DNA of 64,000 nucleotides from Owenia fusiformis (Eukaryota > Annelida > Polychaeta > Sabellida > Oweniidae), in the NCBI GenBank assembly GCA_903813345.2, contig CAIIXF020000011.1, positions 1,328,571 through 1,392,570 on the forward strand. The letters are read 5' to 3'. Positions 9,788 to 32,222 of this stretch are shown piece by piece. Below the pieces are notes generated by a model. The model was not told where the DNA came from and did no database searches. It worked only from the letters and a program-made list of their open reading frames with translations. The position numbers and the translations under genes were made by a program. Within the stretch, counting starts at the first letter, position 1. Each line of letters opens with the position of its first letter.

Positions 9788-10029
9788 CCAGTCAAGTCAA
9801 GTAAGTAAGTCAACATTCGAAAATAAAAATCTCAAAATCGTACATCTTTGATTTTCAAAATAATTTGTGAGGTGGTTATTAAGATGATAATACACATTTT
9901 AACGTATTAATTTTGAGTACATCTCGAATCCATTCTCAACAAAGCGTTCTCGAAATAAGTATTCGAAATGTTTGAGTTCGGGATGATAAAAGTACGTTAA
10001 GATATACCGCTCCTTAACAAACTCCTTTG

Positions 10030-10590
10030 TACGAAGCTTTAAAAGGGACATTTTTTCATTTCTATTTTTGAAAATCATAATTAACTTTTAAAAACTCACA
10101 AAATACTTATTGAAAATTTAAAAACTTTAATAAAAATAAAAATAGTTTTTTAAAATCATAATTAACTTATAAAAACTCACATAATACTTATTGAAAATTT
10201 AAAAACTTAAATAAAAATGTAAATAGTTTTTTAAAATCATAAATAACTTTTGAAAACTCGCAAAACACTTATTTAAAATTCAAAAACTTTAATAAAAATT
10301 GAAGTAACTTTTGTAATTTGAAAATTTAATTTTTTAATTTCAAAATATATATAAAAAAACACTTTTAGAAAATCCTTAAAACTTTAGACTCTATTTTAGG
10401 ATTTCAAAAATCAAATATGTAAATGTAAAATGATTTATAGAAATTATAATAATTTTTTAGAAATATTTTTGCAATTTTTTTTTGCAAAACTGATTTTGGA
10501 AATTCATAAGTCAGTTCAGATTTTTAGATAAGTCTGAAATTTTTTAAAAGTCTTCTGTAAAGGAAAACTTTATGTGGCGTGTCACGGTTG
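10030..10590 (+). repeat. left TIR of the 22-kb transposon
   Basis: The outermost 20 bp are identical to the right TIR. Three degenerate units of about 85 bp follow (10065-10310), each with AAAACTCACAAAATACTTAT and AAAACTTTAATAAAA. The inner block AAGTCTTCTGTAAAGGA (10548-10564) and GGCGTGTCA (about 10576-10584) recur in the right TIR. Units of this kind are typical subterminal transposase-binding sites. Confidence 0.8.
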
Positions 10591-10633
10591 AAATTAACGG
10601 AAGTGAAGGAAGCGGGAATTGTCAAGCAGAAAA
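10575..10633 (+). promoter_or_regulatory. possible 5' leader exon of the HECT gene
   Basis: Just inside the left TIR, a purine-rich stretch ends in CAGAAAA/GTGAGTATATG, a good donor at 10633/10634. The first coding exon of the HECT gene (ATG 13965) has an acceptor only 2 bases upstream (TTTTGTTTTACAG/ACATG), so a non-coding leader exon must exist upstream. This is the best candidate seen, and would mean transcription starts in the TIR. Confidence 0.35.
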
Positions 10634-10949
10634 GTGAGTATATGTAGGCCTAGTTGTCTATACTAGTGGACTATCTTTTATATATTTTACCTTTGTAAGG
10701 CAATCTGTTTGTTCAAAATAACGTAGATGTTGCACTTTACAGATAAACCATTCAAAAGCCAGACATGACGTGAACCACGTGTGCATCACCCCCCCTCAGA
10801 CCGGCCTGGACAAAAATTCATTCAAAATCATGCAGTTTTTCAACAATTTAGAACTCAGTTCAAGTGATTTTTGGCCAAAGTTGATCACCCTGATTTTTTT
10901 TAATGGGATGGTTAGCTAGAGCAGGGGTTTCACTGACTGAATACTAGAC

Positions 10950-12230
10950 ACAGGGCCAGGGCTCCTAGCCTGGGGTGTTCACTGTATATAAACCTTGACG
11001 GGGGGGATCCTCGGCTCATGTGGGGTCCCTTTTTTGACATTTGGTATGGCAATGGACCCAATTTTTAGGATCTGGAATGAGAATGCCCCCTAAATTATGA
11101 TTTGAGGTATGGCAATGGTCAGATTTTTCCACTCCTGGTATGAGAATGGTCATGGAAAATACATTGCCTCTCACTTGTGTATGGCATTGGTCTAGTAGTT
11201 ACACATATCCTTAATTATCCCAACGAACGAAGTTCTGTAGGGATATAGTGAAGCCCTCCGTCTGTCAGTCCGTCCGTCCGTCCGTCCGGAAGATAACTCA
11301 AATACCAGTTGACGGATTTTCTTCATATTTGGTGGAACGATGTATATTGGTGAATAGTTTTACCCAAAAAAAAATTTTCCATGATGGCCGCCGCTTTAAA
11401 AATGACTAGACTTTTTCGTAAAAATCATGAATTTTTCATTCGAAACCAAAGTAATAAATATTTTTGTTTGAAATTTTGGTAGTATATTCACAACATCTAT
11501 TTATTTCACATATATTCCTTGTTTTTCATGCTGACCCCCTGGGGCCGTGTATGGGGGGTCAGGAAAACAGAAATATTCGTTAATTTTGAGGTATTTCTGA
11601 AGTATAGCTTTATTATACTCAAATGAAAGGCAATTTAGAGTTGATTGTATCTTTTTTCAGATTCAGACCTCGTGAAATTCAAAATGGCCGCCTAATGTTG
11701 GATTTCGCAATAATTTTGCGATCCCTTCAAAGTATGCCTATATTATACTCAAATTGAAGGAATTTTAGAGTAGATCACAATTATGGTATTATTTTTCAGA
11801 TTTGTACCTCAGAAAATTCAAAATGGCTGCCTTTCAGGAATTCGCAATCATAAAATCTAAATTTTTCAATTCTATGACTGATTGGAATTAATTTGGTAAT
11901 TGATATATTGTTCGTTGGGATTTGCTACTTCGCGGAGTTGCAGTTTTCTAGTTTGAGGTTGTTTTGGATCGTTTTCCTCAAAGATCTGCCTTCTTCTCGG
12001 GGCTTTAGACATTTTAAATGGCCTTAGTCTTACATCTGGACATGTGGTATGGCAATGGTCTTATATTTGGACATTTGGTGTGCTTTGGGGCATTATTTTT
12101 GTCAGTATGGGAACACATTGAAATTTAACAGATTGGTATGGGAACATATTGATCATATTTGAGGGTTCAGCCTAGGAACCCGCTGAATTTTGTATACAGT
12201 GAACCTCCCGGGCCTAGGGCACTCCCCCCA
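10950..12230. mobile_element. inverted-repeat element in HECT leader intron
   Basis: The left side (GGGCTCCTAGCCTGGGGTGT, TTCACTGTATATAAA, ATTTGGTATGGCAATGG) recurs inverted at 12040-12225 (TTTGTATACAGTGAACCTCC, CGGGCCTAGGGC). TATGGCAATGGTC units are repeated inside both arms. It is interrupted by the repeat at 11213-11955. Confidence 0.55.
11213..11955. repeat. interspersed repeat family R1, copy 1
   Basis: Begins AATTATCCCAACGAACGAAG, contains a (TCCG)n run and AGATAACTCAAATACC, and ends GTTCGTTGGGATTTGCTACT then TTTTCTAGTTTGA. The tips ATCCCAACGAAC / GTTCGTTGGGAT are inverted repeats. Other copies are at 20733 and 26078. Confidence 0.7.
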
Positions 12231-12410
12231 GTTTTCCGTGAGTTAAAATACTGAATTCTGCAAGTGAAATTAGTGAATTCTGCAAAGAAAAAAGCCAATT
12301 CTGCTGGAATTCTGCGGGGTTCCTCTGAGTTTTTTTTGTGAAAAATAAGACATGGATAATAGGCTAAGAGTTAATGACCCGCTATCAAACATGTGAGAAA
12401 TGAAAGTACC

Positions 12411-12419
12411 AGATCTTCG

Positions 12420-12456
<37 letters not shown>

Positions 12457-12462
12457 TCTTCG
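12411..12462. mobile_element. 35-A tract flanked by a 9-bp direct repeat
   Basis: A pure A run (12420-12454) lies between two copies of AGATCTTCG (12411-12419 and 12454-12462). This is the footprint of target-primed insertion of a poly(A) tail with almost no body. Assembly or replication slippage cannot be excluded. Confidence 0.5.
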
Positions 12463-12987
12463 ATCGTTTTCATTGCAAATTCAGTTTAAAATCAACACGT
12501 AATCGCGTGGCGTTATATGTGGCACGATCACAGGAATTGTAAATCTTATCCAAATATGACATTGGGTCTGAAAAAAGAATGTCTGATTGAATATTTTCCA
12601 AAATATTTTGTCTTGCGTTGCCTTTGCCTATAGACACATTTCACCATGCAGCATATCAGTGCACCAGTAGGTGTTACCCCAGGACCGGGTGAATATCATA
12701 CTGGTGACCTATACACAACAAATGCGTTATTGTTGATTATTTCATGCACTGCTGTCATGTAAAAATACTCTGTTCGGATTGGCTGGAATCTGACACACTT
12801 TGCCTAGCTATGTGTGAATTGATGATTAAGTGAGTTGAATGAATTGATATAATTTACCGGTGATTAGGCAAAATTTACATTTGCCATGTAAAGTATAATT
12901 GACTGGCTATGATGACAATGTACCATATATTTTGAAATGACCAATGACATTTATACTTTAATTTATGGTACTAATACATGCTTGGAA

Positions 12988-13936
12988 GGATGTACCATTC
13001 TCGGTAGTTTAGAAAATACATCACTAATAAAATGCATTTTGGGGTTCCTGAAGGGTAAATACAACATATACAATTTTAAATTACCAATTTTTATTCACAT
13101 TTTCTAAAATACTAGTAAACATGCAGTATAAGCAGCATAGGCCTGGAAGCATGCATAAAAATAGAGTAGAATACACCATGACCATGCAGTAAAGCTTTGT
13201 TACGTAACCAATTATCACACTCAAGTAAGATTGAGTCTGATCGACCCTTTGTTCAACTTTTGTGCATACTGTATACACATTAATTAAATTTTACACAGAC
13301 CATCATTAGCTTTAATTCACAAACAAATACCGTGAATTAATACAAACTCCCTCCATTTTGAATTCTATCTGGACCTGCAGCCATCTTGTTTTGGCAATAC
13401 CATGGATGCCAATTACGACCAATTACATTTGAATTTCGAATGATTTAGGGTTTTACTGATACCAGAAGTTAAATCAATCATTTAGATGATTGCCGGTAAA
13501 ATTGTAAATGTGGCTAGAATCTAATAAAGCCGTTTATTTAATTTGGTAAATCCCAATCTGGAAGTTCAGGATTTTCCATGACACAAATAAGAAACTTTAT
13601 CTCCAATGACATTTAAACTTTAAATTAGCTCGATTTGTGACAACCACATCTGCTGACATTATTTTATTTTAAGATATTAAACCGTTTGAATTAAAACGTC
13701 CAGAATAAGTGATTAAATTTGCAAAGTTTTTCACGATTTCAATCGGGGGCCCCCTCAGATTTCGAAACAGGGTTTTCTCGTCTATGGTCCTAAATAATGC
13801 AAAGAAATAGTGAGCATATTCGCATATATGTGGAAATGTGATTAGAAATAGGTAAATTGTGCATGCTGCAATTATCCTACGGGAGCCCCATCATGCATTT
13901 TATTGGTGATGTATTTTCTAAACTACCACTATTCTC
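12988..13936. mobile_element. inverted-repeat element just upstream of HECT exon 1
   Basis: 12990-13060 (TAGTTTAGAAAATACATCAC, AATAAAATGCAT, TGGGGTTCC) recurs inverted at 13862-13936. The interior is non-coding. The right arm ends about 28 bp before the first coding exon, so it lies next to the acceptor. Confidence 0.55.
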
Positions 13937-13964
13937 AGATTAATGAAATTTTTGTTTTACAGAC

Positions 13965-14082
13965 ATGTTTTGCACTGGCTGTGGGAAACCAGCTGTGGGA
14001 AACTTTTGCTGTCACTGTGGTGTAAAATGCCAACCAACACCAAATACCAGTCCAGGCACTAGTAGTGGTAGTGTGTCTTCAG
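13965..14082 (+). CDS. HECT gene exon 1: zinc ribbon
   Basis: Encodes MFCTGCGKPAVGNFCCHCGV and a Ser/Thr/Pro-rich linker. Two CxxC knuckles nine residues apart form half of a double-zinc-ribbon fold, usually a protein- or ubiquitin-binding module. ATG follows the acceptor by 2 bases. Donor TCAG/GTATTTA, phase 1. Confidence 0.7.
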
Positions 14083-17000
14083 GTATTTATTATTTATTTG
14101 GATATACAGGTACACTGTACACTTTTAACAGTAGCACTTTTATAATTTGTATAGAAGTATTTGTTTATAATCAATGTCAAATGAGTGTATTATTTTGCAC
14201 CATTCACCAGTTTGGAGTAATTGGGGGTTTGGGTACTTTGAACCATCTTTGCTCAAGTACTTTTTAAATGGCTGTGTACTCTGTGTAATTATTTACCATA
14301 ATTAAACTAATGGAGTATTAGTTTCACATTATGCTGCACTGGAATTACCCAGATGCAAGTAGGTAGTAATAACTAGTAACCAGTTTCACCACCAGGTGGC
14401 TAATTCGGCGTAAATAGCATGGCAGGTATAGCAGAAAGTGCCCTTAAACTTAAATATCCATCTGTTCTGGTCGAATAATTTTCATATAACCCTTATGTAT
14501 CTGATAGTTATACAAATGAAAAAAATGTCAAGTAAAGCAAAATATTATCTGTCCACTATCTGTCCACTAAATGAAAAGACATCATTCACTTTTTGTGATT
14601 TTATAACATGGGCTCTATGGGGAATCTCCCCGACCTAGAAGTCACATTTTCAAAGAAAATTAAATTTTGAAAGTTGATTAACTGTTTTTGTTACCACATG
14701 TAGATTTCAATATGGTATCACATCGACTGAATTTTGAATATTTAATGATGTAAATCAAGATTATTTCTACTTGCATGTAGGCTAATAGGTTACATGCTTC
14801 CGAAAGTGGACTAGTCATATTAACAAATACTGAATTACATGACTATTACATATTTTGCACCAGTATGGAGTATTTAGGATTTTGAGTATGTACTTTAAAT
14901 CTGTGTGTTTGAGATGTTTAAAATATATCACATTACACCTACTGATCAACATGTAAAGTGGTGTTACATATATGTAATATTACCTGTACCATCTATGTTG
15001 TCTCCTTGTAGTAGAACTGGGACAAGGTAAATTCCTTTGTCTGTGTTTTGAATTCTTCTATCTTTGTTTGGACTTTTGTAATGCTTTTTAACTTATCCTA
15101 ACTAACTTATGACCTATATTTAAATGTGCACATTGACTGAATCTATATCATATCCTTTGAAAAGAACTAAATTCTATCTGAGTTATAATTTCATAAAATA
15201 CCATAGCATCAATTCATAACTTTGATGTTCATTCTATAAAAACTTGGGCTCAACTGCCAGCTATTTGGCTTCTGTAGCATAGTTAGCCCTTTTTAAAAAC
15301 GTGTATCCTTGAAATAACATAGCAATCAAGCAATTCCGCCCTTGCAATAGATTTTCTTACTTATTTATATTACATGTTAAATTCAAGAAATGTGCTCCAG
15401 CTATCTATTTATCAACATGCTGCAACAGCTGCTCTGAAATTGGGTTACATGCTTCCAAAAGTGAACTGGTCATGTAAATTAATGTTAAATATTTGAATTA
15501 TTTTGCACCAGTATGGAGTATTTAGGGTTCTGAGTATGTTTGAGATGTTTAAGAGATATAATCAGATCTAGTGTTACATATTGAAAGGGAAACTGATCAT
15601 GTAAATTGATGTGAAATATTTTGCACCAGTTCGGAACTTGAGGGTTGTGAGTACTTCAATTCACCATCACTTAGATACTCTGTACATTGCCACACGCTCC
15701 AGATATGATAGATATCTGTTACCATCATAAGACTAATGATCATTGGTAACACATTAAACTGCTCTGAAATTAGATTACATGCTTCCAAAAGTGAACTGAT
15801 CATGTAAACAAATGTTAAAATATGTGATCTATTTTGCACCAGTATGGAGTATTTAGGTTTCTGAGTGTTTACTTTAAATCATTTCATTTGAGATCTTTAA
15901 AATATATTACTGCTGTAATCAGGTAATAACTTGAACTGATTGTGCTATTACCAACATGTATATGTTTACAATATTACATCAATACTAGTTGATTTTCTAG
16001 CGAATATACCAATGGCTAATCTGATACAATCCTTCAACCCTATGATTTAAAAATTGTTATGCATACCAAAGTGAACTGATCATGTATGTTTTAAATACAA
16101 GAAGTATTTTGCACCAGTTTGGAGTATTCAAGGTTGCGAGTACTTTAAATTGCTTAAGAGGTCAGGTCAATGTTTCAGTGTGCGTCAAAAAACGTAATTA
16201 ATTATGTAAGGGGGGAGGGTGTAAATCCCTGTTATGACACCACCAAAAAGTGTTGACATATTGTTATGGTCTCCGTTTTTTTGTGATGGCGGTTGGTGGT
16301 TGGAGTCTGTAACAGATTCTTACAACTTCCAATAACTTAACAAATACTGTTTAGACTGACTTAAATTGTTTTCTAAATCATATACAAGTTCTCAGAAGTT
16401 CAAATCTGACTTTAGATTTGAGATTTGACCTTCAATAAAGTTCTTAATGTCAAAAAGGTCTTTTTTTAACTTGCTTCAAAATTTCAAAGTCATCTACAAG
16501 ACCTCAGAAGCTCAAATCTGACTTAAGATTTCAGATTTGACCTTCAATGACCTTCCCAAGGTCAAAACGGTCTTTTTTCAACTTGCTTTAAATTAACCAA
16601 TTTTTTAGGTGGTGACATTTTGCCATGTTAATGCCTTGTTTAATTAGGTGACAGACATTGATTTCAGAGTTTCATCTTCTGCAATGGTATGATCATTTAA
16701 TATACAACAGATATGATAGAGAATTTGATATGTGTTTATAGCAGAAGCAGATATTGTGTGCTGGGGTTGTACTTGTACACTGCATGCAAATCAACATTTT
16801 GATTCTTTAACACTGTACACGAAACAACATTTTGACTTTTGTGAGAAGGGGGAGGGGGGTTAAAACCTTGCTAAATCAATTACGTTTTTTGACGAACAGT
16901 GAAATATTGACCTAACCCAACAACACTATTTACATGGCCAAGTGCTCCTGCTATTTACTTAATATCAATCAAATAAAGAGAATAAGTAAAACATTATGCT

Positions 17001-20000
17001 GCACTTGAATTAGGTTACAAGCATCCAAAAGTGAACTGGTCATGAACATTAATGTTTTATACTTGAATTATTTTGCACCAATAAGTTTGGAGTATTTAGG
17101 GTTCTGAGGGTCAGTACTTTAAATCACCATTACTTGTGAAAGTGAACTGATCATGTAAATTAATGTTTAATTCATGGGTCATTGTCCCCTAACCGTCCCC
17201 ATAGTATTCATAACTAGTAAAGAATAAATGACCTTTAATAAAGCTAAAATAAGTTATTCTTTGTGGTAAAAGTATGTATCCTACTTTCCAGATGATAGGC
17301 GACAAAAGTTGCTGAAGATGATGATGAGCAGCACACAATCCAAAACTGAAAAAATGGGAAGACCGTTGAAAAGTTCGAGAGTGGTACAGTTTGGTCTTTA
17401 TGTAGCCTCCGCATCAGAAAAGTCAAAGCTTACATTAGTGAAGTCTCCATTAGGAGATAAAAACTTTATTCAGCTAACTTGTGGAACACAAGACTCTTAC
17501 CATGATATTCTTCAACAGGTGAAAGCTGCATTATTTCCCAAGGGTCTAAATATAATGATTGGAAATGTAAACTGTTATAATCTAACACTGACAGACATTA
17601 CTGGGCGAAGTGTAGAGGATGCAGTGGATGGTGTTTTTTCATTACGAAAATATCTGGATGCTAAATTAATACCAGGACAGATAAGACTTTTTTGCAAGTG
17701 TATTCCAGTGAATGATGAAGAAAGTGACAGTGACAGCAATAGTGATATTGAAGTGATGAAGACTCGCTACCCATTCAGGTAATTAATATTCTATAAATAA
17801 CAACATACAAGGTGATCCAGAAGTAATGTCACTACTAGACCAATCTTCTTGAAACTTGGCACAGATGTTCCCCAAACATTATTTAGTTAATACCTCAAGA
17901 TTAAAGCTTCTACTATTTGATTGGTTCTGGACTTGATAATTCAATATAATTATCTATTTATTTCATTTTACCATGGGAATCTAATGTCAGTGATTCAATG
18001 TAGGATCATATATAATCTCAGACAATATTTAGTCAATTATTTTATTTTCTGAGAAAGCACCACAGTAGCAATTACATGACTGGGATAGATGATTCTTACA
18101 GCCTTCACTGGGAAAATGCCCTAGGACATAAGGCCATCCTCATAACCAAAAGCTCAGTGGAATCAGTTTTCAAACTTCTGATGAAGGAAATATGTCATGG
18201 GAGCAATCCAAGAAATGAGGAATGAGGCATTTTAAACGTGGAATGCTTCACTCCATATCCTTCAGAATTTAAAGAGTACCACCTCCCTGATCAAAACTAC
18301 ATGGATAAAATTAATGCCAATGCAGATTCCCTCTAAAATAGTCATTTTTTCCATGGGGAATTCAGATGAGACTCTTCATTAATATTAAGTCTCAAAAGAG
18401 ACATAACAGAGTGATTTGCAGGGGTGGATCTTGAATTTGACAATTTTAGTGCTAAATTAGATTTTCCCAATTTTTGAAAATTAAATTGAGGTGCAAAGAA
18501 GACACTTAGAATGGTATAAAACAAAGAATAGTACCCTAACATCAAAGAATATGAGAATTGGTATAAAAATGACACCTCTTTAAATTTTCATTTTAGCTCA
18601 GCAATGACTGATGAAGAGGATCTCAATGGTTCGAGTGCAGACATTACGACATCGTAAGTACATACATGCACTATATGCGCATGCAGTATCAAAAGTAATA
18701 ATCCATACTTAGAACTCCATATGTCTAAATGCTCTAACTGCCTGAATACATATTTGCCTTTTTCTTTTATTGTTATACCAATTTTTCAGACATTTACAGA
18801 AAAGAATGTTTTTAGTCACCGCCAAAAAGACTTGAACACATAATATTGTGAGCAACAAGGTGGTGACATTTTGTCATGTTAATGCCTTGTTAGAACTTGA
18901 TGGTGCAATTTTGAGAGAATATTGTGAAAAGTTTCAGTTAATTTTGGTGTTTTCAGTTCAGGTGTATATTGTGTTACAGGCTGAGCCACTTTATTATTAT
19001 GGGATGGAGTAAGATCAACTAGAAAAATCTGTAATCCAATGCAAATTTCCACATTTAGCCAGTCATCTTACAGTTTACAAAGCATGCCCAAAAGTAATCA
19101 GGTCTAGAATAATAAACCCAGAACCATTGGTAAAAAGTATTAATTAATTTTAGTTTACCTGTAGATATGTTAACAAAACGTGGCAGAAAATATTTAAGCA
19201 TTTGTTTGAATTTTCAGGAAAGGGGATACCATCAGAAAGACAGTTGAAGCTGCCAGTGAAATACAGTAAGTTCATTAGAAAGCATTGTTATCTAACAGAA
19301 ATAGTTAGGAGCAAAGATTTGAATAAGATTTTAAAAGTAATCGGTCCATTCAATCGTACAGTATTTGATCCATCCAATTTTTGTCCATTTATCCCAGAAG
19401 CACTCATTGGCATAGATTGCACCCTCAAAACCAGGTTTGCTGCTCTCCAAATTTACCTTTGCAAAAAACCATGTCATCTTTATATGAAAACAGGGTCCAA
19501 TCTTGAATTCTGGGATTTTTCGACTTCTCCCCTGCGTGCAGAGTCTTGTTATAAATTCCAAAGACAAAGCTCTCTTTTAAGAGGCGAAGTCGAACAAATG
19601 CAAAGGGGACTCCTCTTCCATTATCTAATGTAGAAATAGAGACAGAATGAGTATAAGGGGTCTTCTAACTCTGCCTATTTTAGACCACTCATAATAAGTA
19701 CTATTTCATATTTGTTTAATGTCTTGGTAGATAACACAAACAATTTTCTGATTAAGCGATTCTTTTATATTTTATGGCCTGGAATAGCCTCGAACCCTGG
19801 TCTGTGATACGAAAATCTAATAAGGGACTAGCAAACCTGGGTTTGACTGTTAACCTCCTGTTCATTGTGGTATGGATTACGAATGCAGTTTTGCACAGGT
19901 GTCAACAGAAACAAACAGTAAACCTGGTTTCCTGAAGCTGGGTTTACTGGATTTGCCAAGCACATCTTCGACTCTCTCAGTTATCCAGCCATAATGTGTA

Positions 20001-23000
20001 CATCTCTTGATTAGAAAGATTTTTAAAAAATGAAACAGTTGTAGAAAAGCTGTTATTTAATGAAGCATTTGTTGAATTTTCAGGAATGAGGATACCATCA
20101 GAAAGGCAGTTGAAGGTGCCAGTGATATACAGTAAGTTCATTCAGTGTCATTAGAAAGTATTATTTAGGAGTGAACCTCTCAACAGGACCCTCATATGAA
20201 TCTTCACTTAAAACAAATCCACAAATACATGTATTCTGATGAGTGGCAGTAGGTTTATGATGAGCATTACCTTAGATTAACCCACATATACATACATGTA
20301 CAGGCCCGTAGCCAGGATTTGCCAAAGGGGGGGGGTTGCTTTTTAAAAATTCAAGGGGGGTTCACTTTTGACAACTTTGGCCCAAAAATGCCCAAAATCA
20401 CTTGAAAAGTGCTCAGAATGGTGAACCAAAAATGTAATTTCAGTATGGATTTAGCAAACCTAGACTTAACCAAAAAAGGTCCCCTTATAGGCTTGGTACT
20501 GAAAACAATTTGAAAGATACAACATTATACAAGCATTTCGAACAACATTGTATTGTAACTGTCTTATATTAGACAGTTAGAGTCTTATAAGAATACTATA
20601 CAATACAATCAGTAACATTTATAACTTTTTACCTTGTAGGATGGACTATTGCCTTTCAAAAGAAGAGATGGAGGATTTTATATTCAACATGTAAGTAGAG
20701 CAGACTTCCTTTAAAGACAGAAATATATTTGGTAATTATCCCACCGAACAAAGTTCGAGGGGATATAGGAAAGCCGTCTGTCCGTCCGTCCATCTGTTTG
20801 TCCAGGAGATAACTCAAATACTGGTTGATGCATGGGGATAAGGGAGCTCTGTTCAAGAGGGCTGCTATTTATCGAGACATGTTTTGTTTGGTGGGATTTG
20901 CTACTCGGTGAAGTTGCTGTTTTCTAGTTTGTATATTTGAGGAAATAAAGCCCCACAGAGCAAGAATGACCATGGATTTTGTGTTTTGTATATTTAATAT
21001 ACAGTATGATCACAAAAACATGATTCTCATTTAAACATAAAAAGATGAACATATTGGAGCTTTTCAGAGGCATAGCCAGGATCTTAAATTTGACGAGGCA
21101 AATTTTATTTGGCGAGGCAAATTTGAGGCACTAGCGAAATAACACTATAAAGATAAAAAGAGTTCATTTTCACAACTTCAATTCAAAACAAATGTCTGAA
21201 TTGATATTTTTCTATTAAATTTTGGCGAGGCAGTTGCCTCACCTGCCTTATGCCTGGCTAGTAGTGGCTATGGCCATGGTTTCACAATGAGGTTAGTGTT
21301 TATCAGGTTGACAGTATAGGGCATAAAAATGGCAGTAGTTCCCATCATTTACATCTATAGGAGTTAAGTGAATGTGCTTTCAGTCAAGGTGAGATTAAAA
21401 TCCAATAACCCATATTTAGGCAGCATTTCGAGAAGACCATTATATCACTTTTGGCTGACAAAACAAGCCCATGGGATTGACTATACATTGATTGGTCAGT
21501 CATTCTATCAACATTGTTGATTTTTTAAATAAAATGATTGATGAAAGACATTTTCACTGCCTCTTATAATATCTATAATGGAACTGCCATGATAATAGAG
21601 ATTTCGCAACTCACTTATAACTCACTTATATTATTCCAGTCTAATTATGTCACCACCAAAAAGGGGTGACATATTGTTATGGTCTCCGTTTTTTTGTGAT
21701 GGCGGTTGGTGGTTGGAGTCTGTAACAGATTCTTACAACTTCCAATAACTTAACAAATACCGGAGTTTCTCGCGAATAGGCCCACGGGCGTTTATTTTGC
21801 ACTGGGCGTTTATTTGAAAGAATTTTTAATAAACGCACATGGGCCTTTATTAAGAGGGAAAAAACATTTTTCCAAGGGGGGTGGGCGTTTATTTAGAGGG
21901 AAAATAGCTCTCCCAAGCCAGTGGGCGTTTATGTCGAGGGATATTATAGATCGCAAATATGACACATGTCCTTCATACTCATGCACTAGTATCATGAACG
22001 CGGGCAAGAACGTTGACCAATATGTAACCTCTTGTCATATTTTTATTAATTATTTGTACTAGAATGACAGTAATCACCTATTACCTTACATATGTACTGT
22101 TCGCAATTTCATTCCTTTTCTCGAATAATTCGCCCACTGGGCGTTTATTTGAAATCATTTTTAATAAACGCCCATGGGCCTTTATAAAGAGGGAAAAAAA
22201 CTTTTTCATTCACCCCTCTTTCAAATAAACGCCCATGGGCCTATTCGCAAGAAACTCCGGTACTGTTTAGACTGACTTCAATTTTTTCTGAATCATCTAC
22301 AAGTTCTCAGAAGTTCATATCTGATTTTAGATTTGACCTTCAATGACCTTCTCTAGGTCAAAAAAGGTCAAAAAGGTCTTTTTTCAACTTGCTTCAAATT
22401 GACTAAATTTTGTTTTCAAAATCAGCATTTGACTAAATTTTGTTTTCAAAATCATCTACAAGATCTCAGAAGCTCAAATCTGATTTAAGATTTTAGATCT
22501 GACCTTCATTGACCTTCTCAAGGGCAAAAAGGCCTTCCAACTTGTTTTAAATTTACCAAATTTTTTTAGGTGGTCACATTTTGTCATGTTAATGCCTTGT
22601 GTATAACTTATGAAGCGTTTGATTACGTCATCATTTACATGAATTGCGCAGGTCTGTAAGTACATAGTGTGATATTCTTATAAATCGTTGTCTATGTAAG
22701 AATATCACACTTATGGACGTATAGAGCTGCCCAATAAATGATGACATAATAAAACGCATCAAAAGTTATACGTTATTTGGGAATAATAAACATGCTATAA
22801 GTGAGTTGCAAAATCTCTTTAATAACATTCAATAATGCTTTATTTCAGGAAAAATGAAATAAATCCAGTGATTGTGTTGAAATCGTACCGTATCATGATT
22901 CTCAAGGGAGATGAAATGAACAATATGGATGACAATGGATTCGATAGAGGCAAAGAGACAGATGCTCTAATATGTGTGACTAGATTGACTGGAGATGATG

Positions 23001-25944
23001 GGAAAATCATTTTTGATGATTTTGATGAGCAAGTGCGAACATGGCCTCCTACACACTTTAGGCAGAGAATAGAGGTGATGTACGATGGTGAAAATGCCAA
23101 AGATCTTGGTGGGCCACGTCGAGAACTTCTTACAGATTTAATAAGGTAATATTCTCTCAATAGATATAATGTATGTGTAACTTGGAGCAAGTGAAAATAT
23201 TATGAAGGAATTAATATTGTAACCTTTGCAAGATTTTTCATAAGGGGTTGGATTTTCATTCTTAAAATCTCGTCTGAAAAGTCTTGTCTGTATGTTTCAA
23301 GCCAAACCATTTGACCTAAATTTTTTAGCTCAATTATTTATTGAAAGTCTAGTAATGATTAGTTTTTGGTCATTCTGAGTAAATGTTAATATAGCCATTT
23401 TGGACTTTTCATTCCAAAAACTGTCTATTCTATTCAAGAGTGCAGTATTGTTTTCCTAGTGTCTTGTTTCTTTTTGCTACTGTATAATATTTTTTATGAT
23501 ATCTGATTTTCATTCAGTTTCAATGCAGATATAAAATTGGTCAAACAAAAAGCTGTATGTATGAATGTTCCTCCAAGAAAATCTTGGATTAAGATGTATA
23601 TGGGAGGTGAGACCAGTACAAGTTATGTTCCCAGACTATTTTGTTTGTTTTGGGTTTTCTGAAAAACAACAGTGGATTGAGCATACTGTAATATAGAATT
23701 AGATAATGTAATATTTAAAGGTTTTACTGAGACTTGATTTCAACAAAATAGAAAATGGGCTGCCGATTTCAACAAAATAGAAAATGGGCTGCCAAATTCC
23801 CCATCTATGTAGCAATCAAGTGAGTTAAATTCCCCATCCTGGTAACAATAATAGCTGGTCAAATATAGTTGAAATACATGAAATACCCAGGAGGAATTCA
23901 CATTTCAGAAGTTCCTACTCCCAGGAAACAGTATGATGGCAGTATCCCACCTCCTTGGATGCTACTGTGATAATTTTCTACCCTTTTGTGGGGTGTCTCA
24001 TGCAAACATTTGAATGGTACATAATGCATTATTTAAACTTATTGAAGATTCACGAAGATAAATTATTGCAGGTACATCAAAGGCGATGATTCACCATTCC
24101 TAAATGTGATCAACAATGAGTGCTGGATCAGTACTAGTGAAAGAGAACACATAGGATATTTTGCTGCTGGTGTTGCTGTTGGTGAGTAGCTGTCTAAACT
24201 AATATTAGGCCTATGGGCTCTTTAATTTTTGCTTCTAAAGTTAATTATCCCATCCAGTGCTTGCCTTAAGGACTAATCCGTTGTCAGACATTTTGGCTGG
24301 ACATAATTTTTTTCACCAGGCATTTTCAAATTTCCAAAGACATTTTAAATGGAAAAACTTTTCTAAAAACGTTTTAGAGTATTGACTTCCGCTTCAAAAT
24401 AAGTTGAATAGTTTTCGTCATTTCGTCACTCTGATCTTTGATATGAAGTAGCCTTTGTACTTTCCATTAGATTCAAATGAAAGCTAAAAATATGTAGGGG
24501 TCATAAATGTTTTCTTTGAAGAAAATAAATGAAATATTTTTTTTAATTTAAGCTATGGCATTGCTTTTTGAGGGACCACCTGTCAACTTCCTGGCAGAGG
24601 GGCAGATGGATAGACTCTTAAATAAGGAAAGCTTAGAACTAAATGGAGGAGAGCGAGAGTTTTCAAGAGGAATGAACATGTATGGTGTGCTTGAGGTAAA
24701 TATATATTTAAACCCAACAAAGTTCAGAGAGAGTACCCATCAATCCATTTATTTGAGTACCCATCAATCCATCTATTTTTTCATCTACATGTATTTGTGT
24801 GTTTGTGCAATAATTCAGGAACTTGTTCTCAAAAATGTTAAAACGGCAGCATCTGTAGCTAGACTTTGATTACAATGTCAGATGGGTTTTCTGAGAATCG
24901 TAAGGATATATTACAATATGGTTGCATGCACTTGTAGCATAAGATAAAAACTTTTCTTACAAATCCAAATGTTATATTAATTTGCCACTTGCATTCATTG
25001 AAACCTCTAACTGTACTTCAATCATTTTGTTTTAGCTTGTAAGGAAGAAGCCCGTTATGCGGTATCTGCTTCGCCCAGGAACCCAGGCAGTCATGACAAT
25101 GCGCAAGTTGAAGAGTCTCGTAAAACCTGTGTTTTCCGAAGCGGGAACCAACAGTAAAATAAAAGAAGAGAAAATATTTCGAATGTTCAACAAATACTTA
25201 ATAGAAGTACAGCGTAAATAACAATTTTTGATAATTATCTTCTATTTTTCATTTTTATGTCAGCACCCAAAGTGATGACATATTGTTATGGTCTCCAACT
25301 TTTTTGTGGATGGTGTTCGGTGGTTGGTGTTCAGTGTTCGGCAGTTTGTGTCTATCACAAATAGCTGAATGGCAGGTGGTGACATTTTGCATGTTAATGC
25401 CTTGTTGTACATGCAAGCGCAAGTAATGCTAATTAGAAGTATAAAACACTAAGTCTGACTTACATCTTCTGATTACAGTATATGGAATAAATATAAGTGC
25501 TTTAAAGAGGTCTCGTTTAAACAAAATTATCAAAGTGTCCTCTATTTATCAATACAGGTTAACTGTACTCACTCAATTATTTACTTTATTTGCTTTTCAC
25601 ATAATATTGCTACTACTAGTATAGTAACTTATGAATTACAAGTAAGTCTCTTTTGGAATGAAAATAAACATGTGTTTCACTTTTCATATTTTGTATTTTC
25701 AGATGGCAACAGGCCAGTTGATATCCCAATGATACTTAAATTCATAACAGGCTCTGAAACGGAACCCATAACAGGGTTCGACCCGGGATTAACCATTGAA
25801 TTCTATGACAACAATGATGATATCCCAACATCTTCTACATGCACAAATACTTTCCGCCTTCCATATTATGATGGGATCAAACAAGATAGTGTATTTGCAA
25901 AATTTGATTATGCATTTAGTAATAAGTACTTTGGCAAACATTAA
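13965..25944 (+). CDS. zinc-ribbon / HECT-type E3 ubiquitin ligase, 12 exons, 618 aa, transposon cargo
   Basis: Exons by splice signals and phase: 13965-14082, 17292-17778, 18597-18653, 19218-19265, 20084-20131, 20640-20690, 22849-23145, 23518-23595, 24072-24181, 24553-24695, 25036-25213, 25703-25944. They total 1857 nt, one open frame of 618 codons plus stop. N-terminus: zinc ribbon (C3-x2-C6...C15-x2-C18). Exon 2: a basic linker, an uncharacterised folded region and an acidic Ser tail. Exons 4 and 5: duplicated UIM-like helices. Exons 7-12: HECT domain, with the N-lobe motif DGENAKDLGGPRREL and the C-lobe motif STCTNTFRLP, whose Cys is the expected thioester nucleophile. HECT enzymes accept ubiquitin from an E2 on this Cys and pass it to substrate. 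It resembles the short G2E3-like HECT proteins that occur in many copies in fish and invertebrate genomes. No stop or frameshift is present, so it is probably functional. Confidence 0.8.
15011..15025 (+). CDS. possible 15-bp microexon of the HECT gene
   Basis: TGTCTCCTTGTAG/TAGAACTGGGACAAG/GTAAATTC: a good acceptor and donor enclose 15 bases that keep phase 1 and would insert V-E-L-G-Q between zinc ribbon and exon 2. Chance occurrence is possible. Confidence 0.25.
16163..16913. mobile_element. TIR element with an R2 repeat inside, HECT intron 1
   Basis: AGGTCAATGTTTCAGTG and GTCAAAAAACGTAATT at 16163-16200 recur inverted at 16876-16913, followed inward by G-rich runs on the left and on the right. 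An R2 family copy (16234-16646) occupies most of the interior. Confidence 0.6.
16234..16646 (+). repeat. interspersed repeat family R2, full copy
   Basis: Starts ATGACACCACCAAAAAGTGT, then GACATATTGTTATGGTCTCC, TGACCTTCAATAAAG-like units (GACCTTnnnnAAGGTCAAA), and ends AGGTGGTGACATTTTGCCAT / GTTAATGCCTTGTT. Copies at 21647, 25257 (short), 28770 (inverted), 44213 (short), and a 3' fragment at 18857-18895. Ends GTCACCACC / GGTGGTGAC are inverted. Confidence 0.75.
17805..17850 (+). mobile_element. possible mariner-type terminus
   Basis: TACAAGGTGATCCAGAAGTA resembles the TIR style seen at 5629 (GAGGGTTGTCCCAGAAGTAA). No matching right end was found before the exon at 18597. Confidence 0.25.
19218..20131 (+). 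CDS. HECT gene exons 4 and 5: tandemly duplicated 48-bp exon
   Basis: Exon 4 (19218-19265) encodes KGDTIRKTVEAASEI and exon 5 (20084-20131) encodes NEDTIRKAVEGASDI. Both are 48 bp, phase 2 to phase 2. Flanking intron sequence is also shared (TTGAATTTTCAG before, GTAAGTTCATT after), so the duplication included intron ends. The pattern (acidic-x-x-Ile-x-x-A/T-Val...Ser) is reminiscent of a ubiquitin-interacting motif, but the central Ser is displaced, so UIM is a suggestion only. Confidence 0.6.
20733..20931. repeat. R1 family, internally deleted copy
   Basis: AATTATCCCACCGAACAAAG, (TCCG)n, GATAACTCAAATACTGG, then directly the 3' end GGGATTTGCTACTCGGTGAA and TTTTCTAGTTTG. About 200 bp compared with about 740 bp at 11213. 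Confidence 0.65.
21647..22600 (+). repeat. R2 family copy, itself interrupted
   Basis: Starts ATGTCACCACCAAAAAGGGG and ends TGGTCACATTTTGTCATGTT / AATGCCTTGT. It is split at TAACAAATA / TACTGTTTAG by the element at 21760-22260. The intact copy at 16234 reads AACAAATACTGTTTAG across the same point. Confidence 0.75.
21760..22260. mobile_element. 501-bp MITE with TA target duplication
   Basis: Tips CCGGAGTTTCTCGCGAATAG and the near-complement ending CTATTCGCAAGAAACTCCGG. TA at 21758-21759 and 22261-22262, proven by comparison with the uninterrupted R2 copy. The arms carry several GGGCGTTTATTT units and their complements. Confidence 0.85.
22849..25944 (+). CDS. HECT gene exons 7-12: catalytic domain
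   Basis: Exon 7 covers the start of the HECT N-lobe (VTRLTGDDGKIIFDDF, DLGGPRREL). Exons 9-10 encode EREHIGYFAAGVAVA-MALLFEGPP, the conserved core helix of HECT-like domains. Exon 12 carries the C-lobe with the catalytic Cys in STCTNTFRLP and ends KYFGKH-stop, about 30 residues after the Cys, as normal for HECT. Exon 8 has two possible ends (23595 or 23606), which pair with acceptors at 24072 or about 24083; both keep the frame (KMYIKGDD or KMYMGGDD). Confidence 0.75.
25257..25406 (+). repeat. R2 family, short subtype, HECT intron 11
   Basis: TGTCAGCACCCAAAGTGATG, ATATTGTTATGGTCTCCAAC, then a GTTCGGTGGTTGGTGTTCAG core and the usual end GGTGGTGACATTTTGCATGT. It lacks the GACCTT units. The same subtype is at 44213. 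Confidence 0.6.
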
Positions 25945-26077
25945 AAGTCTTGTCTACATACTGTACATGTTTCCTGGCGCACTGTCAGGATTTACATTTT
26001 TTAGTGGACATTGCCTGAAGCTTAAGATTTCTTTAGCATTAGCATTTTAAAGCTATCATCTGAGAATTCATTTCTCT

Positions 26078-26753
26078 AATTATCCCATCGAACGAAGTTC
26101 GGAGGGATATAGGGAACGCCTCCGTCCGTACGTCCTTCCTTCCGTACATCCGTCTGTCCGGGGGATAACTCAAATACCGTTTGCCCGATTTTGTTTTGAG
26201 AGTAGAAGTTCTGCTCGAAAGCCGATTTTCAAAATGGCCACTCGTTTCAAAATGGCGGTCATTTTAGTGCCGATTTTACAGTAATTTAGGTACAATATAT
26301 AAAACTGTAATAGCAATGTGTTTAAAATGTAAAAAAATTATATAGGACATTGATAAAGCAAGAAATGTAGATATTTAAGAAACACATGGCAGCCATCTTG
26401 AAAAATGGCGGCTTTTACACGCTACTTTACAATTTTTGCTGTAACTTCAAAAGTAGTGGAGCGATTTTGTTCATATTTGATATGTGAATACTCATAAGCA
26501 TGGCACAGTGTTTTATGACACTTTAGGTAGTAGGCAGCCATTTTGAAAAATGGCCACCATTTACATGTTTGTGTGTGTGATTTTGCTGAAATTGTATATG
26601 TGCCTACTTAGAAACATATATTACTCTTGGCTAGTGAGCGACCATTTTTAAAATGATGAATTTTTGCTATAACTGAAAAAGAAGAAGGATTTTGTAAAAT
26701 GGCTGTTCGATGGGATTTGCTACGCTTCGGCGTTGCTCAGTGTTGTCTAGTTT
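26078..26753. repeat. R1 family, copy 3
   Basis: AATTATCCCATCGAACGAAG start, AAAATGGC-rich middle, and end TTCGATGGGATTTGCTACGC then GTCTAGTTTGA. It lies about 130 bp after the HECT stop codon. Confidence 0.65.
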
Positions 26754-27099: not shown

Positions 27100-27706
27100 C
27101 AAGGGTGACGCAAAAAATGACACCCACCTTATGCTGCATAATTTATTTGTCCATTACCATATAGACTTGTCCTTTAGCACATTTGAAGTAGACATAATGC
27201 GTAAGCACCTCGAGAAATTTCAGATATGTAGCTCAAGTGGTTTAAATTTTATGAGCATTACAATAAATTCTCACTTTGGAGACTTTCTCATTAGCCGCAG
27301 ATCTGAGATTGAGTGGGCACCCCATTCCCCTGATATTAACCCACCAAATTTTTACCTCGGGGTATTTAAAGGACCATATGTATGAGACAAAACATCCCCA
27401 AAACAGCTGACTTAAAGAGAGAAATTACAAGGAAGATCAGGGCCATATCTCAATGTGTAAGGGTAATCAACAACTTTGCCTGTAGAATTCATGTTCGCCT
27501 ACAAAGGAATGTACGTCATATATGTCATATGGAACAAATCTTGTAACGCTCATAAAATTTGATCCATTTGAGCTACACATCTGAAATGTCTTGAGGTCTT
27601 TACACATTATGTCTTCTTTAAATGTGCTAAATGACAAGTCTGTATGACCATAGACCAACAAGTTATGCAACGAAAGGTGGGTGTTATTTTTTTTTGAGTC
27701 GCCCTG
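27100..27706. mobile_element. truncated mariner/IS630-type element with ~170-bp TIRs
   Basis: Ends CAAGGGTGACGCAAAAAATG and, reversed, CAGGGCGACTCAAAAAAAAA, TA on both sides (27098-27099, 27707-27708). Arms match for about 170 bp (CACATTTrAAGwAGACATAATG and more). The middle carries a transposase C-terminal relic. Confidence 0.75.
27290..27500 (+). pseudogene. Tc1/mariner transposase C-terminal relic
   Basis: Reads IEWAPHSPDINPPNFYLGVF followed, with breaks, by KREITRKIRAISQCVRV and a RIHVRLQ end. It matches the catalytic WPPxSPDLNPxDFFLWG block and tail of insect-type mariner transposases. Interrupted by stops. Confidence 0.65.
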
Positions 27707-28769
27707 TATTTATCATTCCTAAGAAGAGAAATGCAATCAAAATTGTGACATATGTTATTGACTATGAATACTCAAATGTGATTGCTATTTTTATAGCTAA
27801 AATGGATGCATGTCCAACACATTGTGGGACCACTTGTAGTCTGATTCTGAAAGCTTTTTAAAAATATTTATTTAGTCATGATCAATATACCTATAGCATT
27901 AGCTTGCCTATGAAAAAGGTACTTGAGAAAGTTTGTTTTAAGATATTTTTAAGTGTTCCTGTACAGTACTTAGTATTAACAATTAGACGATTCTATACAA
28001 ACTTTGATTACTAAATTTTGATGACTGTATGAGAGCTGTTATTAGGTATATCATATACATTCCTGAATAATTTAAGATGTTGATTATTGTTGCTATGGAT
28101 TGTGTGATGTAATACTACTAGATGCTGAAAATGTGAATTTACATGTAAGTGTGAATTGTGGATAGAATGTGGAGATTTCTGTAAGTTGTATTGCCAATTA
28201 AGAAATCGGTTCAGTACTTGATTTGTGCATAATTTAAGCTGAAGTTTATCTGTTGTAAATTGATTGCTGTTACATCATGTTAAGAATTACTCTTCGAAGC
28301 ATGTAAAATATTGCCAATATTTTGAACATGCCAAACATCATTATACCATGTCATTTTTATACCATATTTAGAAAGAATGAAGCAAATTTTCTTTAAATCT
28401 CTGATTTATAATTGTAAACTAGAGTATCTGACACTTGTATCAAAATAACAAGTACTTTTTAGTTTATAAGTTAAATTTCTTAAGATGCATTCATTATCCC
28501 AAAGAACGAAGAAGAACAATATTTGCAGTTGCAAAGAATTAAATAATGATGTTACTTTTTAAGGAATACTGAGTCCTAGTGCATCTTGGTGTGTATAATT
28601 CAGAAATACCTTATTCTGTGTAATATTAGTTATGAGAAATATAATGAGATACTAAAATGCTAAGTGTTTTTATTTCATTTTATTTGTCCCACAAGTATAA
28701 TGGCATATTGTACAGGGTGGCCACAGTGGAAAAGTAAAACTCCAGTGCATCCCAATAGACTGGAATAAG

Positions 28770-29296
28770 AACAAGGCATTAACATGACAAAATGTCACCA
28801 CCTAAAACAATTTGGTCAATTTAAAGCACGTCAAACCTTAAATCTAAAGTCTGATTTGAACTTCAGAAAACTTGTAGATGATTTTGAAAAAAAAATTGTG
28901 CAATTTGAAGCAGAGTAAAAAAGACCGTTTTGACCTTGAGAAGGTCATTAAAGGTCAAATCGTAAATCTAAAGTCAGATTTGAATTCCTGAGAACTTGTA
29001 GATGATTTGGAAAAAAATTTTGTCAATTTGAAGCAAGTTGAAAAAAGACCTTTTTGACCTTTTTTTGTTGATCTTGAGAAGGTCATTGAAGGTCAAATCT
29101 CATATTTTAAGTCAGATATGCACTTCTAAGACCTTGTAGATGCTTCAGAAAAAAATTGAAGTCAGTCTAAACAGTATTTGTAAAGTTATTGAAAGTTGTA
29201 AGAATTTGTTACAGACCAGATACCAGACACCAACCGCCGTAACAAAAAACAGACCACGAGACCATAACAATATGTCACCACTTTTGGTGGTGACAT
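28770..29296 (-). repeat. R2 family, inverted copy
   Basis: Reads on the minus strand from ATGTCACCACCAAAAGTGGT (about 29296) to TTAATGCCTTGTT (28770), with several GACCTTCTCAAGGTCAAAA-type units between. Confidence 0.75.
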
Positions 29297-29772
29297 AAAA
29301 ACTGGAAATGAATGAACATTATCAATATATTCAATACGATTATTATCCCACCGAAAGAGGAGCTCATGTTATGCAAGGAAAGGTGTCCAATTCCAGCTAA
29401 TTACACAGTATTTCATATAATTGCATTGCATAATACTAGTCTAATGCACCCAAAGTCATTTTTTATAACATCCATTTAACAATTTCAAATTGGCTGTTCA
29501 CTCACTCACCTCTTGTATTTTCAACAAAAAAACAGATGGATGCACTGACATAGAAATGAAAGAATTGCAATTCAAAGTAGGAGTTAGCCATTTGGTGATA
29601 TTTTGAAAAAACCCTTGCACCGACAAACTACCTGAAAACTTCCAACCACTTGAAAAATCATTACAATTAACAGCTTTACGACCAAATTATACAGAATTGT
29701 AAAACATCAACACTTCAGGCTTGATTCAAAAAATCTGAAAGCCTACTGATGTGAATAAGCTTATTCAATGGA

Positions 29773-31640
29773 TTATTGTTGCAGTTCATGATTAATTTTA
29801 TCTAACAGAAAAACCAGCAACTCTCTTGCCTCCTCTAATGTGTTAGGGGTTGATTTTCCACTTTCCTCCATAAGCATTTGGAATAATTCTTTGAAGTGTT
29901 CCTTGTTAGTTTCTACAACACAAGTATTGTCAGATTCTAACTGAGCAAATATTTCTTGGTCAATCTTTTGCAACACATCCTTATGTCCAAATTCTTCAGG
30001 GGCAAAGTACAGAATATCTGGTTTCCCATTAACTGAACTGACAGATTTTGATTTTTGAATATGGTGTGTATTCCACATTCTTTGCGTTGTGTCAAGTTCT
30101 CTTTGCAGTAGATCCATGTAACAATATCTCATACACTCAATGTCTAGTATGTTTGAATTGTCAATAATGCCAACATCTAACAGCTGGCGGCAGTGAGATA
30201 TCCACATTGCTGCTCCATATATTGGAAATTTACTCCAGAAACTTTCTATTCTCTGGTTTGCAGTTGATTTTCCATACAGAAATGCAACTTTACATGAACA
30301 GTCATCATTTACAGAGCGTAGAACAGTTTGAAGCAGTTCAACCTTGACATTCTCAGTCCCCCGATCTGCGCGAACAATCTTTGGAATACCATTTACATTT
30401 TTAACACAATCGCAAAAGTATTTGCAAATTAACATAGAGTTTTTATTTGAAGATCCTGCTTTGAGCCACAATATTCTTCTACTGAATCCATCCAAGCATC
30501 CATGGACAGTTAAACCATATGGAGTTAGTTTATCCCAGCCATCAATATGCCATATATAGTTGCTCCCTTCAGATGTATATTGTCGCCTTTGTAAGCGTCT
30601 CGTTGATCGTTTGTGTACACCTTCTGGGTCAAGAACTGAGAGCAAACGGCGAATTGTTTCATGATCTGTTTTCAGCCTGCAATTCACAAAAGCTGTCATA
30701 CTTTATTTTATGCCAGAAAAAGGGGAGATAAAATAGTGAAATACAGTATAATGGTAAAGAACTTTATGAGTATCTTATTGGGCGGGATGACAGGTACAAA
30801 ACTGAGTTGACGGGAACAACTGAATTGATGGGTAACAGAAAATGAAACAACAGCACTCTGAGGTGACATATACCAGAAAATGAGATGACGAGGACCAAAA
30901 AGGGGAAAATACATGTACTGAGATTAAGATACGACACAACTTTTTTAACTTATGCCACAAGTGGCAACGGTTTCAAACGTCATGATGACATCTTTTTAAT
31001 AATTGAGTTTGCCTTCAATGAAAACTAAGCGACAGGTACAGGTACTGAGATGACCTAGGTAACATGTATTGAGTACTGGTGTATGTTGAACTGACTTGAT
31101 GGGCAGCATACAGTAGGTATTTTCAAGAAAAGTATTCAGTTGACGGCAGAATAGTTGCTGGCCTTAAAGTGATCTGATTGGCGGAATCACATTCCAGCCT
31201 ATGCCTTCCCATACATGTACCTCATAAATGTGGGGCTGATTTTTCAAATCCAATCTCCACAATTTTACAATCGGGATTCGGGGTACCAGATACTATTCTC
31301 GATTCCGGAATCAGGACATTGATACTTCCCCGATGGTAAAATTGTGGAGATTGATCAATCAATTGACTTACCCATGGACTTTTGTGATTTTGCCATGCAT
31401 ACTCCGGTATCCCATTGCTGACCCACTGCCATGATCTATCTCTTGAATGATAGCGTCAGCAACTGTGCCAATGGCAGTTTTATCGAATTTTCTTGAGAGC
31501 CCCATCTTCTTTAAATCCCTCTTGATCTGTCTCTCCGAAAGTGTAATTCCATGACGGAACTTTAACAACATGCCGATCTCCTTGTACGTAAAACCGTCTT
31601 CAAAGTATGTGGCTATACATTCATCTCGATCTGACTCCAT
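29773..31640 (-). CDS. integrase-type DDE transposase (IS3EU-like), 2 exons, 390 aa
   Basis: Exon 1, 31372-31640 (ATG at 31638-31640), encodes a helix-turn-helix region: YFEDGFTYKEIGMLLKFRHG followed by ERQIKRDLKKMGLSRK. The donor CCATGG/GTAAGTC (phase 2) joins acceptor GAATTGCAG/G at 30676. Exon 2, 29773-30676, has the integrase (rve) core: first Asp in YIWHIDGWDKL, second Asp in KIVRADRGTENV, Glu in ANQRIESFWS, the DDE triad of retroviral-integrase-like enzymes. A helical C-terminal region follows. The spliced frame is unbroken. It would bind the TIRs and carry out strand transfer giving the 6-bp target duplication. It starts about 20 bp inside the right TIR and points toward the convergently transcribed HECT gene. 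Confidence 0.88.
31249..31352. repeat. hairpin in the transposase intron
   Basis: CCAATCTCCACAATTTTAC (about 31249-31267) pairs with GTAAAATTGTGGAGATTG (31336-31353), with a ~70-bp loop. It lies 14 bp downstream of the exon 1 donor and could influence splicing. Confidence 0.5.
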
Positions 31641-31656
31641 TTCTTCTTCGATTATA

Positions 31657-32216
31657 AGTCATGACACGCCGCATCTAGATTCTACAAAATCTCCTTTACA
31701 GAAGACTTTTGTAAAATTAAAATACTTATGCATTTTCAATATTAGTTTTGTAAAATTATTTTTTATTTTGCAAAATTATTTTTATAATTCTATACTTTTG
31801 GAAAATTATTTTGAAAATAATATTTTGAATTGCAAAAGTCCCATCGTATTTTATAAAACTATTTTTAAAATCTGTAAACTAATTTGATTTCTTTAAAGTA
31901 ATCTAGGTATTTTTCCATAAATATTTTGAAATTGAAAAATGAATTTCGAAATTACAAAAATCAAATCCTGTTTCATTCAAGTTTTTAGATTTTAGATAAG
32001 TATTTTGTGAATTTTTATAAGTTTTTTAGATTTAAAACAGAAAAATCGATTTTTCATTTAATATTTTGATATATTACAAAACTAAAATTGTGTTTTATTA
32101 AAGTTTTTAGATTTTATATAAGTACTTTGTGAATTTTTATAAGTTTTTTTGAGATTTGAAAAATTAAAATTGATTTTTTTTTAATTTGAAAAATATGTCC
32201 CTTTTAAAGCTTCGTA
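31657..32216 (-). repeat. right TIR of the 22-kb transposon
   Basis: Inverted counterpart of 10030-10590: tip GTCCCTTTTAAAGCTTCGTA, two copies of the AT-rich subterminal unit (AAGTTTTTAGATTTTA...AAGTACTTTGTGAATTTTTA), the inner block TCCTTTACAGAAGACTT and TGACACGCC at about 31662. The transposase ATG (31640) lies about 20 bp inside its inner edge, so the TIR probably supplies the promoter or 5' leader. Confidence 0.8.
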
Positions 32217-32222
32217 CCTTTG

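Follow-up and report, generated by a model that had tools for sequence, protein, structure and literature searches.

A predicted HECT E3 ubiquitin ligase gene carried as cargo by a probable IS3EU-type DNA transposon in the annelid Owenia fusiformis

Structure of the element

We analyzed a stretch of 64,000 nucleotides from the annelid Owenia fusiformis (assembly GCA_903813345.2, positions 1,328,571 to 1,392,570 of CAIIXF020000011.1), hereafter called the window, which lies in contig C11 of the host genome that we searched (498 Mb, 525 contigs). Positions 10030 to 32216 hold a 22,187-bp element which, judging from its sequence, is very probably a complete and recently mobile DNA transposon of the IS3EU type, with a unit of ∼22 kb that pairs a DDE transposase gene with a HECT gene predicted to encode a zinc-ribbon E3 ubiquitin ligase. 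The two genes are convergent, the HECT gene reading rightwards in the left part of the element and the transposase gene leftwards in the right part.

Comparison of the flanks revealed a target site duplication (TSD), CCTTTG, at positions 10024 to 10029 and 32217 to 32222, exactly as a first-pass annotation made from the letters of this DNA had described it. Its length is 6 bp, the longest match between the end of the left flank and the start of the right flank, and among 200,000 pairs of window positions drawn at random, 92 matched over 6 bp. The tips of the element, TACGAAGCTTTAAAAGGGACAT, are identical at both ends across 22 bp (TA..TA) rather than the 20 bp first reported, and no further copy of the tip was found in the window at five or fewer mismatches. 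When the two ends were aligned with each other, they scored 490, against 270 ± 13 (maximum, 316) for 300 dinucleotide shuffles. Terminal inverted repeats (TIRs) are thus present as annotated, with arms nearer 530 than 560 bp. These arms, ∼535 bp on the left (10030 to 10564, plus strand) and ∼525 bp on the right (31692 to 32216, minus strand), are AT-rich, internally repetitive, and divergent, being ∼70% alike across the best 336 columns; the left one contains an 81-bp unit in 2.9 copies. The inner TIR border is given by a shared 19-mer (10546 to 10564 and 31692 to 31710).

The sequence ATGYGGCGTGTCA lies just inside the left TIR (10572 to 10584, plus strand) and has a mirrored copy at 31674 to 31662, which starts upstream of the transposase gene, 34 bp before its start codon. 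Its core, GGCGTGTCA, occurs at two places only in the window, both just inside the TIRs. It is possible that ATGYGGCGTGTCA, present near both TIRs, represents a shared promoter or leader. Similar 61-bp tandem repeats flank the element in the same orientation (9388 to 9788 and 33769 to 34011).

The transposase and HECT genes

The transposase gene is predicted to consist of two exons encoding 390 amino acids (aa) without an internal stop, which bears out the unbroken integrase-type transposase of the first-pass annotation. Exon 1 (31372 to 31640, minus strand) encodes a helix-turn-helix/Clr5-like N terminus and exon 2 (29773 to 30676, minus strand) encodes the integrase-type core (PF24764; E = 1.4e-32), in which D135, D194, and E234 were assigned by motif as the putative catalytic triad. 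The match to the IS481 family is weak (E = 0.0024, far under the family cut-off), and Pfam found no HHCC motif.

The HECT gene was predicted to comprise up to 12 exons, all on the plus strand, with 618 codons in one open frame and 11 introns that are all of the GT..AG type. From base composition, a frame of this length would be open by chance with a probability of ∼9e-21. Exon 1 (13965 to 14082) contains the start codon and a CxxC..CxxC pattern, and exon 2 (17292 to 17778) encodes 162 aa; neither this N-terminal pattern nor exon 2 has a Pfam match. Exons 3 (18597 to 18653), 6 (20640 to 20690), 9 (24072 to 24181), 10 (24553 to 24695), and 11 (25036 to 25213) stem from the gene prediction. Exons 4 (19218 to 19265) and 5 (20084 to 20131), of 48 bp each, are duplicates lying in an 81-bp match of 92.6% and are phase-compatible either way. 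Exon 8 (23518 to 23595) is phase-symmetric and may be a cassette exon that can be skipped in frame; since its omission barely shifts the Pfam HECT score (42.5 bits with it and 42.7 without it), we keep it as possible. The 12-exon zinc-ribbon/HECT gene proposed initially therefore stands as one open frame with a HECT match, and its exon count becomes 10 to 12 because exon 8 is skippable and exons 4 and 5 are duplicates.

Exon 12 (25703 to 25944) encodes the C-lobe, which matches PF00632 (E = 1.8e-10; 41.4 bits against a cut-off of 23.9), and ends with the stop codon. It contains the predicted catalytic Cys585 within STCTNTFRLPYY, which aligned to the AREL1 and Rsp5 structures. Exon 7 (22849 to 23145) encodes the putative N-lobe motif YDGENAKDLGGPRREL, a short match to Rsp5, Itchy, and AREL1; the Pfam alignment is limited to positions 190 to 284 of the 306-position profile. 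The protein terminates in YFGKH, with a Phe four residues before the end, which we take to be a feature of active HECT enzymes. Like the cellular HECT E3 ligases AREL1, Rsp5, and E6AP, the product has a C-lobe motif with the predicted catalytic Cys and, putatively, an N-lobe motif; it differs from them in that the similarity is weak (best PDB match, E = 8.5e-4) and that its gene is located in transposons. We describe the product as a predicted E3 ubiquitin ligase of the HECT type with a zinc ribbon. G2E3-like proteins, the nearest relative of which is G2E3, combine N-terminal PHD/RING-type fingers with a HECT domain. AlphaFold2 models of single exons, computed without an alignment, had predicted local distance difference test (pLDDT) scores of 35.8 and 36.9.

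A family of repeats resembling miniature inverted-repeat transposable elements (MITEs) is concentrated in the element (16232 to 16642, 18858 to 18891, 21645 to 22603, 25255 to 25406, and 28770 to 29298), with a single match elsewhere in the window (44211 to 44371, 72%).

Copies of the element in the genome

A genome search with the left TIR returned at least 41 matches: 17 left ends, 17 right ends, a further fragment belonging to one right end, and 6 additional sites. These correspond to at least 17 TIR-bounded copies of 16.8 to 37.3 kb, of which 11 (the window copy and ten others) were covered in full and six at their ends. The TSD is exact over 6 bp in 15 of the 17 copies (CCTTTG, GTTCGG, GTAATC, GAGGTC, CATTGG, GTTGAT, CATAAT, CAGGGC, CTTTAC, CTAGTT, GGGTTT, GTTATC, AAGACC, AGGGAG, and AAAGGC) and measures 7 bp in the copy on contig C5; in copy K, GTATCA is shared beside eroded tips. 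The other 16 copies have the termini TACGAAGC..GCTTCGTA.

The transposase core and HECT exons 7 and 12 have matches in all 17 elements, and HECT exon 2 has matches in 15 of them. Gene order and orientation are the same in all 11 fully covered copies. This is the pattern anticipated in the first-pass annotation, namely, several copies with the same gene order, each with its own duplication (6 or 7 bp in 16 of 17). Among the 49 matches listed for HECT exons 2, 7, and 12, none lies outside an element, the 17 last-exon matches all being inside. Scoring in this search covered 76 of the 155 candidates, and a fragment on contig C9 described below is absent from the matches listed, so distant or broken HECT relatives may be hidden.

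Copy B is inserted in a dispersed repeat, and its joined flanks carry one copy of the 6-bp duplication. Of the 72 matches listed for these joined flanks, 35 run unbroken through the insertion point and extend 20 bases or more to either side of it, at 72 to 85% identity; as read from their sequence, these are paralogous empty sites. Given the matches to HECT exons 7 and 12 and to the transposase core in every one of the 17 TIR-bounded copies, the 6- or 7-bp duplications of 16 of them, and the empty sites of copy B, we consider it established at the level of sequence that a complete predicted HECT ligase gene is carried as transposon cargo, as had been proposed for the window copy.

The 11 copies differ little: we counted 54 private isolated noncoding differences over ∼200,000 copy-sites, or ∼0.03% per copy, which indicates that the burst is very recent. 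Except for deleted stretches, the copies are collinear with the window copy through the intronic MITE-like insertions, which are therefore older than the burst. Eight of the 11 copies (A, C, E, F, H, I, J, and K) encode an identical HECT protein and 10 an identical transposase, the transposase exon of copy K (C6:39115745-39150645) being split by an insertion of ∼10 kb. Isolated variable sites numbered 2 in 31,946 coding copy-sites and 49 in 188,388 noncoding copy-sites, with 7 in the TIRs, which amounts to a coding deficit (P = 0.016). Both coding sites are silent, and the lack of any amino acid change has a P value of 0.003 for the two genes together, if 76% of coding sites are assumed to be nonsynonymous.

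An older relative on contig C9

A degenerate, older relative of the element (L043; C9:11976384-11986383, positions 2005 to 5000) retains a fragment of HECT exon 2, transposase exon 1, and the right TIR, all ordered and oriented as in the element, and its right tip differs by one base. No left end was found in the 10 kb around the TIR match. Since this relative carries the exon 2 fragment in the same arrangement, the HECT gene was aboard before the present burst.

We compared the exon 2 fragment with the element over 80 clean codons and obtained proportions of synonymous (pS) and nonsynonymous (pN) differences of 0.21 and 0.053, respectively (pN/pS, ∼0.25; Fisher P = 0.001). The clean codons are ungapped stretches, a choice that favors conserved sequence, so the constraint is suggestive and not final; over the whole alignment, including its broken parts (111 codons), pS was 0.243 and pN was 0.093. 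Part of one HECT exon thus looks to be under constraint.

Discussion

The second gene of RAG1L-RAG2L transposons encodes a transposase cofactor. Those elements resemble the one described here in being animal DNA transposons with two convergent genes, to judge from the accessible part of the description (PMC7204232), and differ from it in that their transposase is unrelated. The TA..TA termini, the 6-bp TSD, and the DDE transposase with an integrase-type core all agree with IS3EU. IS3EU/GingerRoot elements are described in the accessible text of PMC10045372 as having TA..TA termini and TSDs of usually 6 bp, with no HHCC motif reported; the present element shares these traits along with the DDE transposase, and it differs in carrying a spliced HECT gene, neither HECT nor ubiquitin being mentioned in that text. 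Accessory enzymes have a precedent in fungal IS3EU elements, which, according to the available portion of PMC12730594, carry TET/JBP and alpha-kinase genes, with the transposase and kinase genes oppositely oriented, and the author of which suggested that TET/JBP aids escape from silencing. In contrast to the present element, these are fungal and encode a dioxygenase and a kinase instead of a ubiquitin ligase, and HECT and ubiquitin go unmentioned in the same portion.

None of the 5.39 million open papers searched, a body that leaves out subscription papers and Repbase, named IS3EU, transposon, and HECT together; a record confined to a database is possible. Two of these papers name IS3EU along with ubiquitin, each with one mention of ubiquitin. 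At the level of titles and the starts of abstracts, no description of a transposon-borne HECT gene was apparent among the papers listed, except for an unclassified repeat of Cottus fish with a blastx match to G2E3 (PMC5638112, as accessible), the sole hint that we found of wider HECT cargo. The accessible text of a survey of transposon-domain fusions does not mention HECT (PMC12062965), and that of a study in which some bivalves are listed with G2E3 and others as lacking it has no match to "transpos" (PMC11353290).

A pattern search of a prokaryote collection gave one match to the transposase, on a 3.8-kb contig filed in a bacterial metagenome-assembled genome from a sponge symbiont (LWTN01000133.1). 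This homologue shares the W-H-x-D-G, D-x-G-T-E-N, and R-I-E-S-F-W motifs and is broken by an intron, and the contig is probably eukaryotic contamination; it carries no HECT gene, and at 3.8 kb it is too short to be informative on this point. A protein search of the same collection yielded four stretches, none of which was confirmed. Viral contigs gave no pattern match to the transposase protein; a degenerate pattern also had no match, a looser one had four without a convincing relative, and the 24 stretches fitting the HECT protein pattern were not confirmed.

How might a HECT ligase serve such an element? In a working model, the transposase would recognize the TIRs by their repetitive subterminal DNA and insert the unit with a stagger of 6 bp. 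The starts of both genes would lie at the inner borders of the TIRs, where two sequence motifs are shared, and the HECT protein would act in trans in the nucleus, where ubiquitination could set the escape from silencing or the activity of the element. We find it plausible, at somewhat under even chances, that the ligase is co-expressed with the transposase and that its substrate is either the transposase or a nuclear host factor that acts in silencing or repair. The broader proposal, that a long-lived animal IS3EU lineage has an integral, TIR-transcribed HECT gene that destroys or re-routes a host silencing or repair factor or tunes the transposase, is put forward tentatively, as a possibility of slightly lower standing.

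Several observations weigh against an integral HECT gene. HECT reading frames were covered in 11 of the 17 copies, and three of these 11 have a broken gene: copy B is frameshifted by a 2-bp deletion in exon 11, and copies D and G, each with its own TSD, lack exons 2 to 6 with the same breakpoint. The deletions in D and G join two intronic copies of the MITE-like repeat, and the crossover falls in a stretch identical between both repeats, which would fit one shared deletion as well as two separate ones. If the deletion predates insertion, the HECT gene would be dispensable in cis; intact copies could complement D and G. The variation data are also less clear-cut for HECT taken alone, for which the lack of amino acid changes has a P value of 0.027. 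Moreover, one of the two silent coding sites falls within the doubtful exon 8, and 9 of 67 variable sites, densely clustered, were excluded before counting. Transposase exon 1, compared with the C9 relative, shows no contrast (pS, 0.059; pN, 0.050).

Further points of this kind come from loci outside the 17 elements. TIR copies lacking the HECT gene everywhere, the counterexample named in the first-pass annotation, did not occur; among six partial TIR matches, however, L044 (C134:689-10688, near 5001) and L045 (C7:17450241-17460240, near 5153) have neither gene in the surrounding 10 kb. The right tip is present with one mismatch in L044 and without mismatch in L045, and these loci are candidates for short non-autonomous relatives, or they may be broken ends. 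The remaining partial matches are the C9 relative and C5:5348595, C12:21441576, and C12:21529110, these three being known as matches alone. Seventeen transposase-core (rva_4) matches, among them C12:8024798-8025319, also lie outside the 17 elements; one of the 17 has an open frame of 271 aa and scores much higher against the family. Within ∼519 kb of these cores there is no Pfam match to HECT, nor any on contig C32, so that IS3EU movement as such would need no HECT; Pfam, however, detects the C-lobe region alone of this HECT gene, and fragments near other cores could escape. The genome has 64 other Pfam HECT matches in 21 clusters, which are presumably host genes.

Such observations suit a passenger, that is, a host HECT gene captured once by the ancestor of the lineage, hitch-hiking without helping and intact mainly because the burst is recent. 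At ∼0.03% private substitutions per copy, neutral cargo would look intact too, the HECT gene is broken more often than the transposase gene (3 versus 1 of 11 copies), and other transposase cores occur without detectable HECT. Nevertheless, the C9 relative already held the HECT gene in the same place, with a pN/pS of ∼0.25 in its clean codons, and the eight intact copies show no amino acid change, and we regard a mere passenger as somewhat unlikely.

We also considered whether the HECT gene is a separate element nested in the IS3EU transposon. Nesting does occur, as seen from the several MITE-like insertions in the introns, and a dispersed direct repeat brackets the HECT gene (11204 to 11323 and 26069 to 26195, 77%), with a third copy inside at 20733. 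However, apart from the TIRs of the element, no inverted-repeat pair with arms of at least 30 nucleotides surrounds exons 1 to 12; exons 2, 7, and 12 have no match beyond the elements among those listed, and the C9 relative is arranged alike, which leaves nesting very improbable. That a host HECT gene is flanked by two TIRs by chance, or that the assembly is in error, is refuted by the at least 17 TIR-bounded copies with both genes and target duplications, by the position of exons 2, 7, and 12 inside elements in all matches listed, and by the paralogous empty sites of copy B, and nothing was found in its favor.

An integral HECT gene, if confirmed, would extend the accessory genes of eukaryotic DNA transposons to the ubiquitin system and would be the equivalent, in a transposon, of viral E3 ligases. 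In animals, some of the lineage-specific HECT expansions that are annotated as host genes would then be this transposon, and caution is in any case warranted when HECT genes are tallied as expansions of the host, since mobile elements may be among them. A recently active element with two genes also offers a system for testing directly what an E3 ligase does on a transposon.

Other features of the window

Three further regions lie outside the element. A 459-aa open frame on the minus strand (397 to 1776) has galaxin-like repeats (PF24748; E = 2.2e-49). The region from 43341 to 44038 is repetitive, with open frames in several reading frames. On the minus strand at 51877 to 52833, a 318-aa open frame encodes a DXD glycosyltransferase domain (PF04488; E = 9.4e-9).

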